A stretch of DNA of 64,000 nt from Mycobacteriales bacterium. Lineage in GTDB: Bacteria > Actinomycetota > Actinomycetes > Mycobacteriales > SCTD01. The notes under the pieces are model-generated. The model ran no database searches. It was given only the letters and a program-made list of their open reading frames with translations, and had not been told where the DNA came from. The stretch spans positions 7,804 to 71,803 of the forward strand of contig JBBDWV010000052.1 of assembly GCA_040902655.1 (NCBI GenBank), written 5' to 3'. The position numbers and the translations under genes were made by a program. Shown here piece after piece: positions 41,814 through 46,465 of this stretch (position 1 is its first letter; the number at the start of each line of letters is the position of its first letter).

Positions 41814-41850
41814 GAGCCGGTCTCACCTCCTCGAACGGGGAAACCGGCTC
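41814..41850. terminator. Inverted repeat between convergent genes
   Basis: gagccggt (41814-41821) and accggctc (41843-41850) are perfect 8-bp complements in the 48 bp between the reductase and desaturase stops. Plausible bidirectional terminator, without a T-run. Confidence 0.4.
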
Positions 41851-43030
41851 AGGCCGCGGACGCGGCCGGCTCGACCGTGGCCGGACGGACCCGCCGCAGC
41901 AGGGCGAGTGGGGTGACGCCGGACACGGCGGCTGCACCTGCCCGGCCGAGGTCGTTGGGCAGCGAGAGCCGGAACACCTTCTTCCACGCGGACCCGAGCT
42001 GCCGGGGGAGCGGCCCGGTGGCGTAGCTGAGGCCGTACCGCTCGAACAGCTCCTGGATCTTCGGTGCGATCTCCTTGTACCGGTTGCTCGGCAGGTCGGG
42101 GTAGAGGTGGTGCTCGATCTGGAAGGACAGGTTCCCGGTCATCAGGTGCAGGAACTCCCCGCCGCTGATGTTGGCGGCTCCGAGCATCTGGCGCAGGTAC
42201 CACTGCCCTCGGGTCTCGCCGTCGATCGAGGTCTTGGTGAAGGTCTCCACGCCGTCCGGGAAGTGGCCGCACATGATGACCGAGTGGGTCCACAGGTTGC
42301 GGACCAGGTTGGCGGTGGCGTTGGCCGCCAGGGTGGGTAGGAACGAGGGGCCGGACAGCAACGGGTGCACGACGTAGTCCCGGGCGGCCTGCTTCTTGAT
42401 CTTGGTCAGTACCTGCCGGCCCTGACGGCGGAACAGGTCCTTGTCCTTGCGTCCCTTGACCACCTTGCCGATCTCGAGGTCGTACGCGGCGATGCCGTAC
42501 TCGAACAGGCAGGCGTTGAGGAAGTTCCACAGCGGCTGTCCGAGGTAGAGCGGGTGCCAGCGCTGGTCCTCGTCGACCCGCATGATGCCGTAGCCGAGGT
42601 CGTTGTCGCGGCCGAGCACGTTGGTGAACGTGTGGTGGATCTGGTTGTGCGAGTGCTTCCACATGTCCGACGGGGAGGCGTTGTCCCACTCCCAGCTGGT
42701 GGAGTGGATCTTGGGGTCGCGCATCCAGTCCCACTGGCCGTGCATGACGTTGTGCCCGATCTCCATGTTCTCGAGGATCTTCGAGACCGACAGGCCTGCC
42801 GTGCCGATCAGCCACACGGGCGGGAACAGCGAGAACAGCAGCAGTCCGCGGCTGGCGAGCTCCAGGCTGCGCTGGGCGTCGATGATCTTGCGGATGTAGG
42901 TCGCGTCGCGCTCCCCGCGGCTGGCCAGGACCTGCTCGCGGATCGCGTCGAGCTCGCGGCCGAGGGTCTCCACGTCCTCGTCGGTGAGGTGCGCGATCGG
43001 GTTGTGCGGCTTGTTCTGGACAGCAGTCAT
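41849..43030 (-). CDS. Membrane fatty acid desaturase (DesA3-like)
   Basis: 393 residues, integral membrane di-iron acyl-CoA or acyl-lipid desaturase. The three histidine boxes are GHNVMHGQWDW, HSHNQIHHTF and QIEHHLYPDLP. Hydrophobic segments lie around residues 60-80 and 165-185. The family includes mycobacterial DesA3, which introduces the delta-9 double bond into stearoyl-CoA with electrons from a dedicated oxidoreductase. Its partner gene is 25 bp upstream in the same operon, as in mycobacteria. All iron ligands are present. Confidence 0.95.
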   Translation of the reverse strand: MTAVQNKPHNPIAHLTDEDVETLGRELDAIREQVLASRGERDATYIRKIIDAQRSLELASRGLLLFSLFPPVWLIGTAGLSVSKILENMEIGHNVMHGQWDWMRDPKIHSTSWEWDNASPSDMWKHSHNQIHHTFTNVLGRDNDLGYGIMRVDEDQRWHPLYLGQPLWNFLNACLFEYGIAAYDLEIGKVVKGRKDKDLFRRQGRQVLTKIKKQAARDYVVHPLLSGPSFLPTLAANATANLVRNLWTHSVIMCGHFPDGVETFTKTSIDGETRGQWYLRQMLGAANISGGEFLHLMTGNLSFQIEHHLYPDLPSNRYKEIAPKIQELFERYGLSYATGPLPRQLGSAWKKVFRLSLPNDLGRAGAAAVSGVTPLALLRRVRPATVEPAASAA

Positions 43031-43055
43031 GCGGTGTCCTCCACGGGTCCGGGTG

Positions 43056-44147
43056 TCAGAGTTCGATGTCGCAGGCGCCGGCAGCGGCGTTGATGCAGGT
43101 CTGGATGCGCACGCCGTCGCCCTCGGCGGCGGTGGTGAGCGCGCCGTCGCGCAGGTCGCGGACGGCGCCGGAGCGCAGCGGTACGACGCAGCCGAAGCAG
43201 ATGCCCATCCGGCAGCCGGACGGCATGAGCACCCCGGCCTTCTCGCCGGCGTCGAGCAGGGGCGTGCCGCCGCCGGCTTCGAGGGTGACCTGCTGCTCGA
43301 GGAAGCGCACCGTGCCGCCCTCGCCGGTCGCCAGGACGGTGGCCCGGAAGCGTTCGGTGTGCAGCCGGTCGGCGATGCCGCGGGCGCCGAAGTGTTCCTC
43401 GAGCGCGTCGAGCATCCCGACCGGGCCGCAGGCCCAGGTCTGCCGCTCGGCCAGGTCGGGCACCAGCCCTTCGACGTCCTCGGCGGTGAGCAGCCCGGCT
43501 TCGTCGGTGTGCTGTTCCACCAGCCGGATGCGGCCGCGCGCGGCCAGGGCGCGCAACTCGCCGCCGAAGACGACGTCGCCTGCGGTCGGTGCCGAGTGCA
43601 CCAGGACGACGTCCTCGAGCTCGTCGAGCGCGTTGCGCAGCATCCCCATGACGGGGGTGATCCCGCTGCCGGCCGTCACGAAGAGCACCTTCGCCGGCCG
43701 GGGCTCGGGCAGGACGAAGGCCCCGGTCGCCTGGTCGAGCTGGACCACGAGGCCGGGGCGGGCGCGGCGGACGAGGTGGTTGCTGACCGTGCCGTCAGGG
43801 ATGGCCTTGACGGTGACGGCGATGCACCCGTCGGGCCGGTCCACCGGCGAGGTGAGGGAGTAAGCTCGCCATTGGCGGACCCCGTCGACGTCGACGCCGA
43901 GCCGCACGTACTGGCCGGGGGTGTGTGGCCGCCAGCCACGTCCCGGGCGGAGAACGAGGGACACCGCGTCGCGGGTCTCCGGATGCACCGCGACGATCCG
44001 TCCGCGCAGGTCGGCGCCGGACCGCAGCGGGTCCAGCAGGTCGACGTAGTCGGACGGGACGAGCGGCGTGGCCACCAGCCCCGCGAGCTGGACAGCGCGC
44101 TCGCGCAGCCGGGTCAGGGCGGCAGGAGCAAGGGCCGGTGCAGTCAT
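43056..44147 (-). CDS. Flavodoxin-reductase/2Fe-2S electron transfer protein for desaturase
   Basis: 363 residues, oxygenase-reductase layout. The FAD domain has RAYSLTSPVDRPDG. The NAD(P) domain has VLFVTAGSGITPVMGMLR and WACGPVGMLDALEEHF. The plant-type 2Fe-2S domain carries its ligands in PSGCRMGICFGCV and QTCIN. It moves electrons from NAD(P)H to the desaturase encoded next, matching the mycobacterial Rv3230c-DesA3 pair. It lies 88 bp after the regulator gene and 25 bp before the desaturase. Confidence 0.94.
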   Translation of the reverse strand: MTAPALAPAALTRLRERAVQLAGLVATPLVPSDYVDLLDPLRSGADLRGRIVAVHPETRDAVSLVLRPGRGWRPHTPGQYVRLGVDVDGVRQWRAYSLTSPVDRPDGCIAVTVKAIPDGTVSNHLVRRARPGLVVQLDQATGAFVLPEPRPAKVLFVTAGSGITPVMGMLRNALDELEDVVLVHSAPTAGDVVFGGELRALAARGRIRLVEQHTDEAGLLTAEDVEGLVPDLAERQTWACGPVGMLDALEEHFGARGIADRLHTERFRATVLATGEGGTVRFLEQQVTLEAGGGTPLLDAGEKAGVLMPSGCRMGICFGCVVPLRSGAVRDLRDGALTTAAEGDGVRIQTCINAAAGACDIEL

Positions 44148-44235: not shown

Positions 44236-44916
44236 TCAGCCAGACTGCCGGAAAGCGACGCAGCAGCTGTCCGGGTCGGGGCGCAGGTCGGCCTGCAGGT
44301 CCCGGTCCAGCCCGAGCCCCTCGAGATAGCCGTCCGAGAGGGAGAGGTTCAGCGAGCAGACCTGCTCGGTGTTCGTGGCCCGGAACGTGTCGAACGGACA
44401 GTTCCGTACGAACAGCTCGTCGCCCTGCCGGCGCGGGGCATAGCCGAGCGTGGACAGCAGCCGCTCCAGCCGCGCGAACCGGGCCGTCGCCGTCCGGGGG
44501 AGCCGTCCGGAGGCGAGCTGCCGGCCCAGCTCCGCGCCGCGGCGCCGGGCGGCCCGCAGGGCGCTCGTGTGCGCCGTGTCGTCGGGTCGGAAGTCGGCGA
44601 TGCTGTCGAGCAGGACGCCGGCGAGCAGGTCGTAGCGGCGGTCCGGCACGCTCGCCACCACCTCCTGCTTCGATACGCGGTAGCGCTGCGCCGGGCGACC
44701 GGGTCCGCCGGTGGTGGCGTCCGGCCCGATTCCCTCGACGAAGCCGGACTCGAGCAGCTTGCCCAGGTGGAAGGCGACGAGGGTGCGGCCCACGCCCAGC
44801 GTGTCGACCAGCGCGGTCACCGTGCACGGCCCGTCCGCCTGCAGCCGCTCGAAGACGCGCCGCCGCTGCGGCTCGGTGAACACGCCCAGCTGACTGATGT
44901 CCTGCTCGAATCCCAC
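44236..44916 (-). CDS. Helix-turn-helix regulator with SufR-like Cys cluster
   Basis: 226 residues. The winged helix covers residues 15-60 (QRRRVFERLQADGPCTVTAL, LGVGRTLVAFHLGKLLESGF). The C-terminal half contains NCPFDTF, EQVCSLNLSLSDGYLEGLG and PDPDSCCVAFR. These four cysteines are spaced as in SufR-type Fe-S or related metal-sensing repressors. It heads the reductase-desaturase operon and is divergent from the Cys-rich mini-gene. Two matching repeats at 44935 and 45024 are likely binding sites. The GTG start follows a TAGGCT box by six bases (leaderless). The bound ligand is inferred, not shown. Confidence 0.88.
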   Translation of the reverse strand: MGFEQDISQLGVFTEPQRRRVFERLQADGPCTVTALVDTLGVGRTLVAFHLGKLLESGFVEGIGPDATTGGPGRPAQRYRVSKQEVVASVPDRRYDLLAGVLLDSIADFRPDDTAHTSALRAARRRGAELGRQLASGRLPRTATARFARLERLLSTLGYAPRRQGDELFVRNCPFDTFRATNTEQVCSLNLSLSDGYLEGLGLDRDLQADLRPDPDSCCVAFRQSG

Positions 44917-44934: not shown

Positions 44935-44960
44935 TTTGTCCAACAGTGGTTGACCGAACG
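44935..44960. promoter_or_regulatory. Repeat 1: TCCAAC-N5-TTGACCGAA
   Basis: First of two 26-bp direct repeats. This copy contains the dyad CAAC-N4-GTTG, close to the CAAC-N6-GTTG reported for cyanobacterial SufR sites. It lies just upstream of the regulator's -10 box, well placed for autorepression. Confidence 0.5.
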
Positions 44961-45023
44961 GGGGATGACGGGGTTGCGTCTCGATGGGGCGAGCAGCCCG
45001 GTCGGCGCCCCGACCCCTCATCT

Positions 45024-45049
45024 TTTCTCCAACGAAAATTGACCGAATG
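45024..45049. promoter_or_regulatory. Repeat 2: TCCAAC-N5-TTGACCGAA
   Basis: Second direct repeat, 89 bp from the first, identical at TCCAAC and TTGACCGAA. It lies about 55 bp before the mini-gene, so it may control that transcript. Confidence 0.45.
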
Positions 45050-45104
45050 CGGCAGAGCGAGTAGTAACAACATCTGTAGGTACAACATCGGAAGGGAGGT
45101 CGAC

Positions 45105-45167
45105 ATGTGCAAGGAGTGCGGCTGCGAGACCGCCAAGAAGGACGACAACGCGGATCAGGGCCACTGA
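45105..45167 (+). CDS. 20-residue Cys-rich mini-protein or leader peptide
   Basis: MCKECGCETAKKDDNADQGH. GGGAGG lies five bases before the ATG, and a 10-bp GC hairpin begins six bases after the stop. Both support real translation of this very short frame. Three of the first seven residues are cysteine, with acidic residues and a C-terminal His: a possible metal-binding peptide. Alternatively it is a cysteine-sensing leader peptide controlling the DUF2231 operon through the hairpin; Cys-codon attenuators are known from mycobacteria. It diverges from the SufR-like regulator and shares its repeats. Function unproven. Confidence 0.6.
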   Translation: MCKECGCETAKKDDNADQGH

Positions 45168-45173
45168 CGGCCG

Positions 45174-45202
45174 GCCGGGCAGCCTGACCCGTGCTGCCCG
45201 GC
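45174..45202 (+). terminator. Hairpin after mini-gene
   Basis: gccgggcagc (45174-45183) and gctgcccggc (45193-45202) form a perfect 10-bp stem with a nine-base loop, 52 bp before the DUF2231 gene. Terminator or attenuator; no T-run. Confidence 0.6.
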
Positions 45203-45254: not shown

Positions 45255-45794
45255 ATGGACAGTTCCGCCAAGCTCGCCGGACACGCCATTCACCAGCAAC
45301 TGATCGTTCTGCCCCTGGGCCTGCTGGCCACCGCAGTCGTGTTCGACCTCCTGCGGCTGTCCACCGGCAACGCCGACTTCGCCACCGCCAGCTACCTGAT
45401 GATCGCCGCGGGGGTGCTCGGCGGTCTGCTCGCCGCCGTGTTCGGCTTCATCGACTACCTCGCCGTGCCGGCCGGCACCCGCGCCAAGCGGGTCGGCGCC
45501 GTGCATGGTGTGGGCAACGTCGTGGTCGTGGTGCTGTTCGCCGCCAGCTGGCTGCTGCGGGCGGCTGAGACGGATCATGTCGCCACCGGCCTGGCGCTGG
45601 GGCTGGCGCTGGCCGGTGCCGCGCTGGCGCTGCTGACCGGGTGGCTCGGCGGCGAGCTGGTAGGCCGCCTCGGTGTCGGGGTCGACGACGACGCCGAGCT
45701 GGATGCACGGCCCTCGTTCACCACCGGCATCCAGCTGGGCCGGCGCGATGCCGCCGCCGTCCGCTCACCGGCGCCGCCGTCCTACGGGTCGTGA
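45255..45794 (+). CDS. DUF2231 membrane protein
   Basis: 179 residues with four spans. GHAIHQQLIVLPLGLLATAV at the start is the DUF2231 signature with its histidines. ASYLMIAAGVLGGLLAAVFG, VVVVVLFAASWLLRA and GLALGLALAGAALALLTGWL are further spans. DUF2231 proteins are quinone- or heme-associated redox membrane proteins by prediction. GAGGAGCATCCG precedes ATG 45255. Its stop overlaps the GTG of the next gene, starting a tightly packed operon. Confidence 0.9.
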   Translation: MDSSAKLAGHAIHQQLIVLPLGLLATAVVFDLLRLSTGNADFATASYLMIAAGVLGGLLAAVFGFIDYLAVPAGTRAKRVGAVHGVGNVVVVVLFAASWLLRAAETDHVATGLALGLALAGAALALLTGWLGGELVGRLGVGVDDDAELDARPSFTTGIQLGRRDAAAVRSPAPPSYGS

Positions 45795-46465
45795 CAGCGC
45801 AGCGGATCTCCCACCGCACCGTCTGGCGGCGGTATGCCCTGGCTGCCGGCCTGGTCGTGGGGATCACGCTGGCGACGTTCGCGGTCGTGCAGATGGCGCA
45901 GGTGCCGGGCTTCCAGGATGCGCGCCTGCTCCACGGCAGCAGCGCCTGGACGGCCGCCGCCTCCGGCATCGGCCTGCTCATCGCCGACGTGCTCCTGCCG
46001 GTGCCGTCCAGCGGCGTCATGACGGCACACGGAGCGCTGTTCGGCGTCGCGGTCGGCACCATGCTGTCGCTGGTGGGAAACACCGGAGCGGTGCTCGCCG
46101 GGTGGCTGGTCGGTCGCACGGGGCGGGGCCGCCTGGAGCAGCCGCTGTCACCGCTCCAACGGGCCCGGGCGAGCGCCCTGCTGGGCCGGTGGGGGCCGGC
46201 CGCCCTGATCGTGACGCGCCCGGTGCCTGTGCTCGCCGAGACCGTGACCATCATGGCCGGAGCCACCGGGATGCGGCTCGTCCCGGTGCTGGCGGCGGGG
46301 GTAGCGGGCTCGCTACCGGTCGCACTCGCGTACGCCGTCGCGGGCCGGTGGGCAGCGACATCGGGCGTGGCGTTGCTGGTGTTCATCGTTCTGGTGGGAC
46401 TCGCCCTCGCCGCGCTCCTGCTGGCGCGGCGCGCGTCCTTCCGTGAGCGGCAGGCGGCGGCATGA
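45791..46465 (+). CDS. VTT/DedA-type (TVP38-like) membrane protein
   Basis: 224 residues, about five spans. The conserved core is LLIADVLLPVPSSGVMTAHG, GNTGAVLAGWLVGRTGRG and WGPAALIVTRPVPVLAETVT, matching the re-entrant loops of DedA/VTT proteins, some of which flip polyprenyl phosphates or phospholipids. GTG 45791 overlaps the DUF2231 stop (GTGA) and the stop overlaps the next ATG. Substrate unknown. Confidence 0.88.
   Translation: MTAQRISHRTVWRRYALAAGLVVGITLATFAVVQMAQVPGFQDARLLHGSSAWTAAASGIGLLIADVLLPVPSSGVMTAHGALFGVAVGTMLSLVGNTGAVLAGWLVGRTGRGRLEQPLSPLQRARASALLGRWGPAALIVTRPVPVLAETVTIMAGATGMRLVPVLAAGVAGSLPVALAYAVAGRWAATSGVALLVFIVLVGLALAALLLARRASFRERQAAA

Follow-up and report, generated by a model that had tools for sequence, protein, structure and literature searches.

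A conserved 20-codon gene facing a SufR-like regulator in Mycobacteriales: a candidate metal-binding micropeptide

The window analyzed here is a stretch of 64,000 nucleotides from a Mycobacteriales bacterium (G000:C52:7804-71803, strand +, where G000 is the bacterium's own genome). Within it, an ArsR/SufR-like regulator gene and a reading frame of only 20 codons diverge from a shared intergenic region, and the latter is followed by a hairpin and by genes for membrane proteins. The features are as follows, with the basis of each assignment in parentheses.

44236-44916, minus strand: ArsR/SufR-like HTH regulator with C173, C187, C218 and C219 (Pfam HTH_20/HTH_5; NCBIfam SufR; alignment; ortholog pairing)
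44939-44957, plus strand: second putative operator copy, TCCAACAGTGGTTGACCGA, upstream of the regulator start (counts in the genome and the window)
45028-45046, plus strand: putative operator, TCCAACGAAAATTGACCGA, overlapping the -35 box (promoter comparison; counts in the genome and the window)
45039-45044, plus strand: -35 box TTGACC (same placement relative to the operator and the -10 box in three loci)
45062-45067, plus strand: -10 box TAGTAA after a 17-bp spacer (TAGAAC in genome G020 and TAACAA in genome G008, with the same spacer)
45093-45099, plus strand: Shine-Dalgarno (SD) sequence AGGGAGG, 5 nt 5' of the ATG (sequence reading; SD kept in all copies)
45105-45167, plus strand: mini-gene of 20 codons, peptide MCKECGCETAKKDDNADQGH (direct reading; eight kept copies in six genomes)
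45174-45202, plus strand: GC hairpin, perfect over 10 bp, with a loop of 9 nt; it begins six bases past the stop and lacks a U-run (sequence reading; z = -2.4)
45255-45794, plus strand: DUF2231 membrane protein, the next gene downstream (Pfam PF09990, E = 2e-30)
45791-46465, plus strand: VTT-domain membrane protein, probably in the same operon (Pfam PF09335)

The mini-gene starts with the ATG at 45105, stops with the TGA at 45165-45167 and contains Cys codons at positions 2, 5 and 7 only, so that no run of consecutive Cys codons is present; the form named for a synthetic version of its product is CKECGCETAKKDDNADQGH. Annotation is normally blind to genes shorter than 25 codons, and the ORF finder merged this frame with an upstream GTG (44946) into a protein of 73 aa. 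We rejected the GTG-started ORF (44946-45167), because the homology to the relatives begins exactly at the ATG. The peptide had no match in Pfam and carries no GTPase domain (all copies are 15-20 codons long), it was assigned to no family in a PHROGs search, and a tblastn search against plasmid and phage records yielded no match, a null result that a query of 20 aa makes non-decisive. On the strand of the regulator and behind it lie the genes of an FAD/Fer2 oxidoreductase and a fatty-acid desaturase (41849-44147), which may be co-transcribed with the regulator.

We searched the whole genomes of 61 relatives, all 24 genomes of the family with a pattern, and the order with a profile, and the results agreed with one another. 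Altogether, eight mini-genes encoding 15-20 aa each were identified in six genomes of a single taxonomic family, as listed below by genome.

G000 (own genome), one copy: MCKECGCETAKKDDNADQGH
G002, one copy: MCEECGCETTSKDDK
G003, two copies: MCKECGCETTTSDDT and MCKECGCETSTTTESE
G005, one copy: MCKECGCESGKTDSSEDE
G008, two copies: MCKECGCATTSNDDK and MCEECGCEPAPKDTKKDDSK
G020, one copy: MCKECGCEPSDKKKDDK

All eight copies share the head MC[KE]ECGC[EA], in which M1, C2, E4, C5, G6 and C7 are invariant, and each has its own ATG and stop, with a purine-rich SD directly 5' of the ATG. The tails are hydrophilic and rich in D, K, T and S; their 72 residues in total comprise D, T, K, S, E, A, P, N, G, Q and H only. 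V, I, L, M, F, W, Y, R and C, which make up 37% of the codons of the same DNA read in all frames, are absent from the tails (naive p = 4e-15, relatedness of the copies being ignored). The reversed pattern, used as a control in the 24 family genomes, gave almost no matches. No copy was found in four genomes of the same genus (G001, G004, G006 and G007), some of which are incomplete. Considering the invariant head, the restricted composition of the tail and the nearly empty control, we see no reasonable explanation other than selection acting on the peptide, and chance does not reasonably account for the frame. The original prediction proposed a 20-codon Cys-rich frame with a strong ribosome-binding site and named conservation in close relatives as one test that could refute it; the frame, including its SD, was found to be kept in five other genomes besides our own. 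Thus, the genome comparison confirms the 20-codon ORF as a genuine, unannotated gene, and the gene is probably translated.

The 15-20 aa form appeared to be confined to two genera of one family among approximately 1,110 genomes. The searches ran at the levels of family, order, class and phylum, and the patterns or profiles they used were not equally strict. Outside the family, mini-genes of the same kind were found neither in 397 genomes of the phylum (with a pattern requiring GGAG) nor in 399 genomes of the order (profile and pattern) nor in 395 genomes of the class. The outside matches that were translated, approximately half of the matches in one of the searches, turned out to be HypB-type or hemerythrin-like N-termini or spurious frames. 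Among the matches listed for GTDB contigs, short copies of the same kind came only from the family genomes already found, and the named records are MAGs labelled Mycobacteriales, Frankiales, Frankiaceae or Actinomycetota. A literature search on the literal motif retrieved no report of such a peptide.

The MCxxCGC head also occurs at the N-termini of longer proteins, including members of CopZ-like and NifU/NfuA-like families (weak model matches) and others that, judged by eye, we take to be HypB and hemerythrin-like proteins. Actinobacterial proteins of approximately 140-170 aa that are hemerythrin-like in appearance start with MC[DENQ][YH]CGC (L020, L021, L022, L142, L146, L271, L275, L276, L278, L284-L291, L294 and L299). 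A conserved protein of approximately 80 aa on Selenomonadaceae contigs (L024-L140), very common in Selenomonadales, starts with MCKECGCG, and the domain after it is weakly CopZ-like. In IMG/VR (L204-L247), the MCKECGC pattern matched 44 contigs, and on 42 of them the match is a short frame of 29-43 aa; the tails are of several unrelated types. Most of these frames are free-standing, albeit a few are in-frame C-terminal pieces and not free genes; some adjoin genes for the major head protein or tail/glycosyltransferase genes, and most of those tested belong to no PHROG family. The viral micropeptides resemble the mini-gene product in having a free-standing MCKECGC head and a hydrophilic tail, whereas they are longer and their tails are unrelated, with no homology seen beyond the head.

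The original prediction that the mini-gene carries a copy of a putative operator held well. The window contains two exact copies of CAACNNNNRTTGAC (44941 and 45030; 0.05 occurrences expected), both of them in this intergenic region, and exact matches of the longer form TCCAACNNNNRTTGACCGA exist in the whole own genome only at these two sites. The copy located upstream of the regulator start suggests that the regulator controls its own expression. Close orthologs of the regulator were detected in three family genomes only (G000, G008 and G020, with identity figures of 61% and 49% for those of G008 and G020), and each of them is divergent from a mini-gene. The three paired loci share the promoter TCnnCAAC-N4-RTTGAC, a 17-bp spacer and TAGTAA, TAGAAC or TAACAA, with the operator 60-80 bp 5' of the ATG. 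Six more distant homologs of the regulator (31-38%) have neither a mini-gene nor the operator alongside, and the remaining five mini-gene copies lack both the operator and a regulator nearby.

The regulator shares with SufR an ArsR/DeoR-like HTH domain and a C-terminal pattern resembling the Cys triad, and the locus shares CAAC...GTTG half-sites, a divergent gene probably under its control and likely autoregulation. The Cys pattern, C173-X13-C187-X30-C218C219, is kept in the alignment of the three orthologs; M. tuberculosis SufR requires C203, C216 and C244 (PMC6034842), and its spacing of X12/X27 differs from X13/X30 here. The operator of cyanobacterial SufR is CAAC-N6-GTTG, and the holo-protein is the repressing form (PMC8593673), whereas both sites in the window and the orthologous loci have the spacer N4 (CAAC-N4-RTTG), and the target here is not a suf operon. 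On the SufR model (NCBIfam, TIGR02702), the regulator scored 26.4 bits and its G008 ortholog 23.0 bits, far below the equivalog cut-off of 178.8, and we rejected its membership in SufR; a PDB search with the regulator profile matched HTH domains only. Of the SufR-like Cys-cluster regulator predicted originally, the divergent orientation and a fair resemblance remain. The mini-gene is probably under the control of a repressor resembling sensors of Fe-S cluster status. As the regulator resembles SufR yet scores so low on its model, repression by the cluster-bearing form, the sensing of Fe-S and the direction of regulation are what we infer by analogy.

The genes behind the mini-gene differ among genomes. 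In the window, DUF2231 comes first, then VTT and then a pair of GSDH-like genes (Pfam), and the operon has no Rieske gene, while the mini-gene is followed by a Rieske ferredoxin, an FAD ferredoxin reductase and DUF2231 in G002 and on contig 9 of G008, by Rieske and then the contig end on contig 178 of G003, by Rieske, reductase and thioredoxin in G020, and by reductase in G005. Linkage to Rieske or ferredoxin-reductase genes was therefore seen in G002, G003, G005, G008 and G020. Of the five Rieske homologs in the family whose E-values are better than 1e-30, four have a mini-gene directly in front of them; the exception is a paralog on contig 11 of G008. The DUF2231 protein of the window (31% over 71 aa) and the reductase (34-40%) are only distant relatives of the proteins in the other operons. 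The search of relatives for the frame upstream of DUF2231 genes, proposed with the original prediction, was thus positive in two of them, with Rieske and reductase genes in between. As for the predicted redox/membrane operon, the membrane genes were found as described, but the clearer redox module (Rieske plus ferredoxin reductase) resides in the relatives. On contig 8 of G008, the mini-gene stands alone with its own operator, the next gene being a convergent class II ribonucleotide reductase; on contig 178 of G003, a co-directional DUF4383-type gene lies 45 nt upstream of the mini-gene, and a partial co-directional ORF precedes that of G002.

The predicted 10-bp hairpin within six bases of the stop is present as a perfect inverted repeat, with the arms GCCGGGCAGC (45174-45183) and GCTGCCCGGC (45193-45202). 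The 60 nt past the stop have a minimum free energy of -32.4, and dinucleotide shuffles gave -25.3 +- 2.9 (z = -2.4). Hairpins are strong at the three regulated loci, namely the window, G020 and contig 8 of G008, the last with a hairpin of 13 bp (z = -2.4 for the window, -4.1 and -3.9 for the other two), and non-significant at the copy on contig 9 of G008 (z = +1.2).

A metal-binding micropeptide should keep its Cys ligands within a short free-standing ORF that is itself conserved, and this is what was found here; all eight copies possess the N-terminal MCxxCGC head of the HypB type. In E. coli HypB, Cys2, Cys5 and Cys7 bind Ni(II) together with the N-terminal amine at a sub-picomolar Kd (PMC7055735), while isolated HypB head peptides bound Cu (Ka near 1e6 per M) and neither Ni nor Zn at pH 5.5 (PMC6848105). 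The mini-gene product is alike in Cys2, Cys5, Gly6 and Cys7 straight after the start Met, and short head peptides of this type do bind metal; it differs in lacking the GTPase domain, in being 15-20 residues in total and in its genomic context. We regard the product, with a probability of about 0.5, as a micropeptide under repressor control, whose ligand would be a soft metal or a precursor of Fe-S clusters and which would work for an electron-transfer module of the Rieske type. The function would reside in the cytosolic 20-aa peptide itself. Its MCxECGC head, probably after removal of Met, would supply three thiolates and the N-terminal amine, the ligand set of the E. coli HypB N-terminus, for a soft or borderline metal ion or an Fe-S precursor, and the acidic and lysine-rich tail may keep the peptide soluble. 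In view of these HypB results, we leave the candidate metal as Cu(I), Ni(II) or Fe. The dedicated SufR-like repressor, probably bearing an Fe-S cluster, would occupy the -35 box, and loss of the cluster under iron shortage or oxidative or copper stress would lead to production of the peptide in quantity. The hairpin may end or protect the short message, making it abundant relative to the downstream membrane and electron-transfer genes, which would be expressed in lower amounts by read-through. Several observations speak against this reading: the low SufR score and the N4 spacer, the five copies devoid of the operator, the lack of a Rieske gene and the distant DUF2231 and reductase in the window, the non-significant hairpin on contig 9 of G008 and the restriction to one family.

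The original prediction left the choice between a metal-binding micropeptide and a Cys-responsive attenuator leader, in which translation at the Cys codons would decide whether the hairpin forms and, through it, the expression of the downstream operon. Three Cys codons among the first seven, the hairpin immediately past the stop and the mycobacterial precedent for Cys-responsive short ORFs (Canestrari et al., 2020, as cited in PMC7790235) agree with a leader, and like the mycobacterial polycysteine attenuators the mini-gene is a very short Cys-containing ORF heading some operons. Unlike them, it has an SD and a 5' UTR, its Cys codons are not in tandem, and it is also found as a monocistron or inside an operon. 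The copy on contig 8 of G008 has no downstream gene on its strand to be attenuated, and the copy behind the DUF4383 gene in G003 is, judged by gene order, not the first ORF of its transcript. Because of these two copies, we favor a peptide product and rejected an attenuator leader as the general function. Conservation of amino-acid identity and tail composition across copies, the hairpin without a U-run and neighbors other than sulfur-assimilation genes add to this, and a leader is highly improbable. Of the two options, the metal-binding micropeptide is thus favored, with its head kept residue for residue, the composition of its tail kept and its motif matching a known metal site, and the attenuator is contradicted.

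Two other roles for the peptide are unlikely, if less so. It could bind the SufR-like repressor, or load or unload its cluster, and serve in feedback regulation instead of supplying metal to other proteins; a mini-gene lies opposite each of the three close regulator orthologs, and the mini-gene on contig 8 of G008 is the sole apparent target of its promoter. Against such feedback, five copies have no regulator nearby, and no regulator ortholog was found in G002, G003 or G005. Alternatively, the peptide could be a detached nickel site of the HypB N-terminus that helps, in trans, to mature hydrogenase or urease where the cell has no HypB. The ligand positions are those of HypB, the [NiFe] hydrogenase large subunit occurs in G000, G002 and G008, homologs of HypD, HypE and HypF lie near the hydrogenase in G000 and G008, and no HypB above the cut-off was detected in the 24 family genomes (the best match to the HypB model in the own genome lies within a urease-type cluster and is probably UreG). 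However, no mini-gene is near hydrogenase, hyp or urease genes; the mini-gene holders G003, G005 and G020, whose genomes are incomplete, had no hydrogenase found; G016 and G022 have hydrogenase matches without a mini-gene; the place of HypB may be taken by a CbiA/ParA-type ATPase encoded next to the hydrogenase; and the SufR-like control and the Rieske linkage point to Fe-S.

Separately, the hydrogenase loci (L301 7093-13075, L302 6448-15162, L306 and L315) encode a large subunit starting with MCFKTLPV and ending with VNTCSCGGD. The CbiA/ParA-type protein, a P-loop ATPase, adjoins the [NiFe] hydrogenase in both genomes, with homologs of HypD, HypE and HypF nearby and HypB not found in the genome.

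Returning to the metal-binding micropeptide, a more speculative extension, which we consider doubtful, is that the HypB-type MCxxCGC site was split off into a gene for 15-20 aa with an Fe-S-sensing repressor of its own, and that the free-standing peptide is a dedicated mobile carrier of metal or Fe-S precursors, which loads ferredoxin systems of the Rieske type or gives nickel to hydrogenase maturation lacking HypB. To our knowledge, no carrier peptide this small is directed to Fe-S or Ni enzymes. If this reading is true, the MCKECGC micropeptides on viral contigs may represent the same principle used by viruses. A gene of fewer than 25 codons is backed here by conservation, a common promoter and operator and a strictly paired regulator, and a metal-site motif familiar from N-terminal tags on larger proteins appears to exist also as an independent gene product. 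The locus would add a class of targets outside suf operons for SufR-like regulators, and it would offer a tiny, chemically synthesizable system that joins metal binding, Fe-S sensing and electron transfer.
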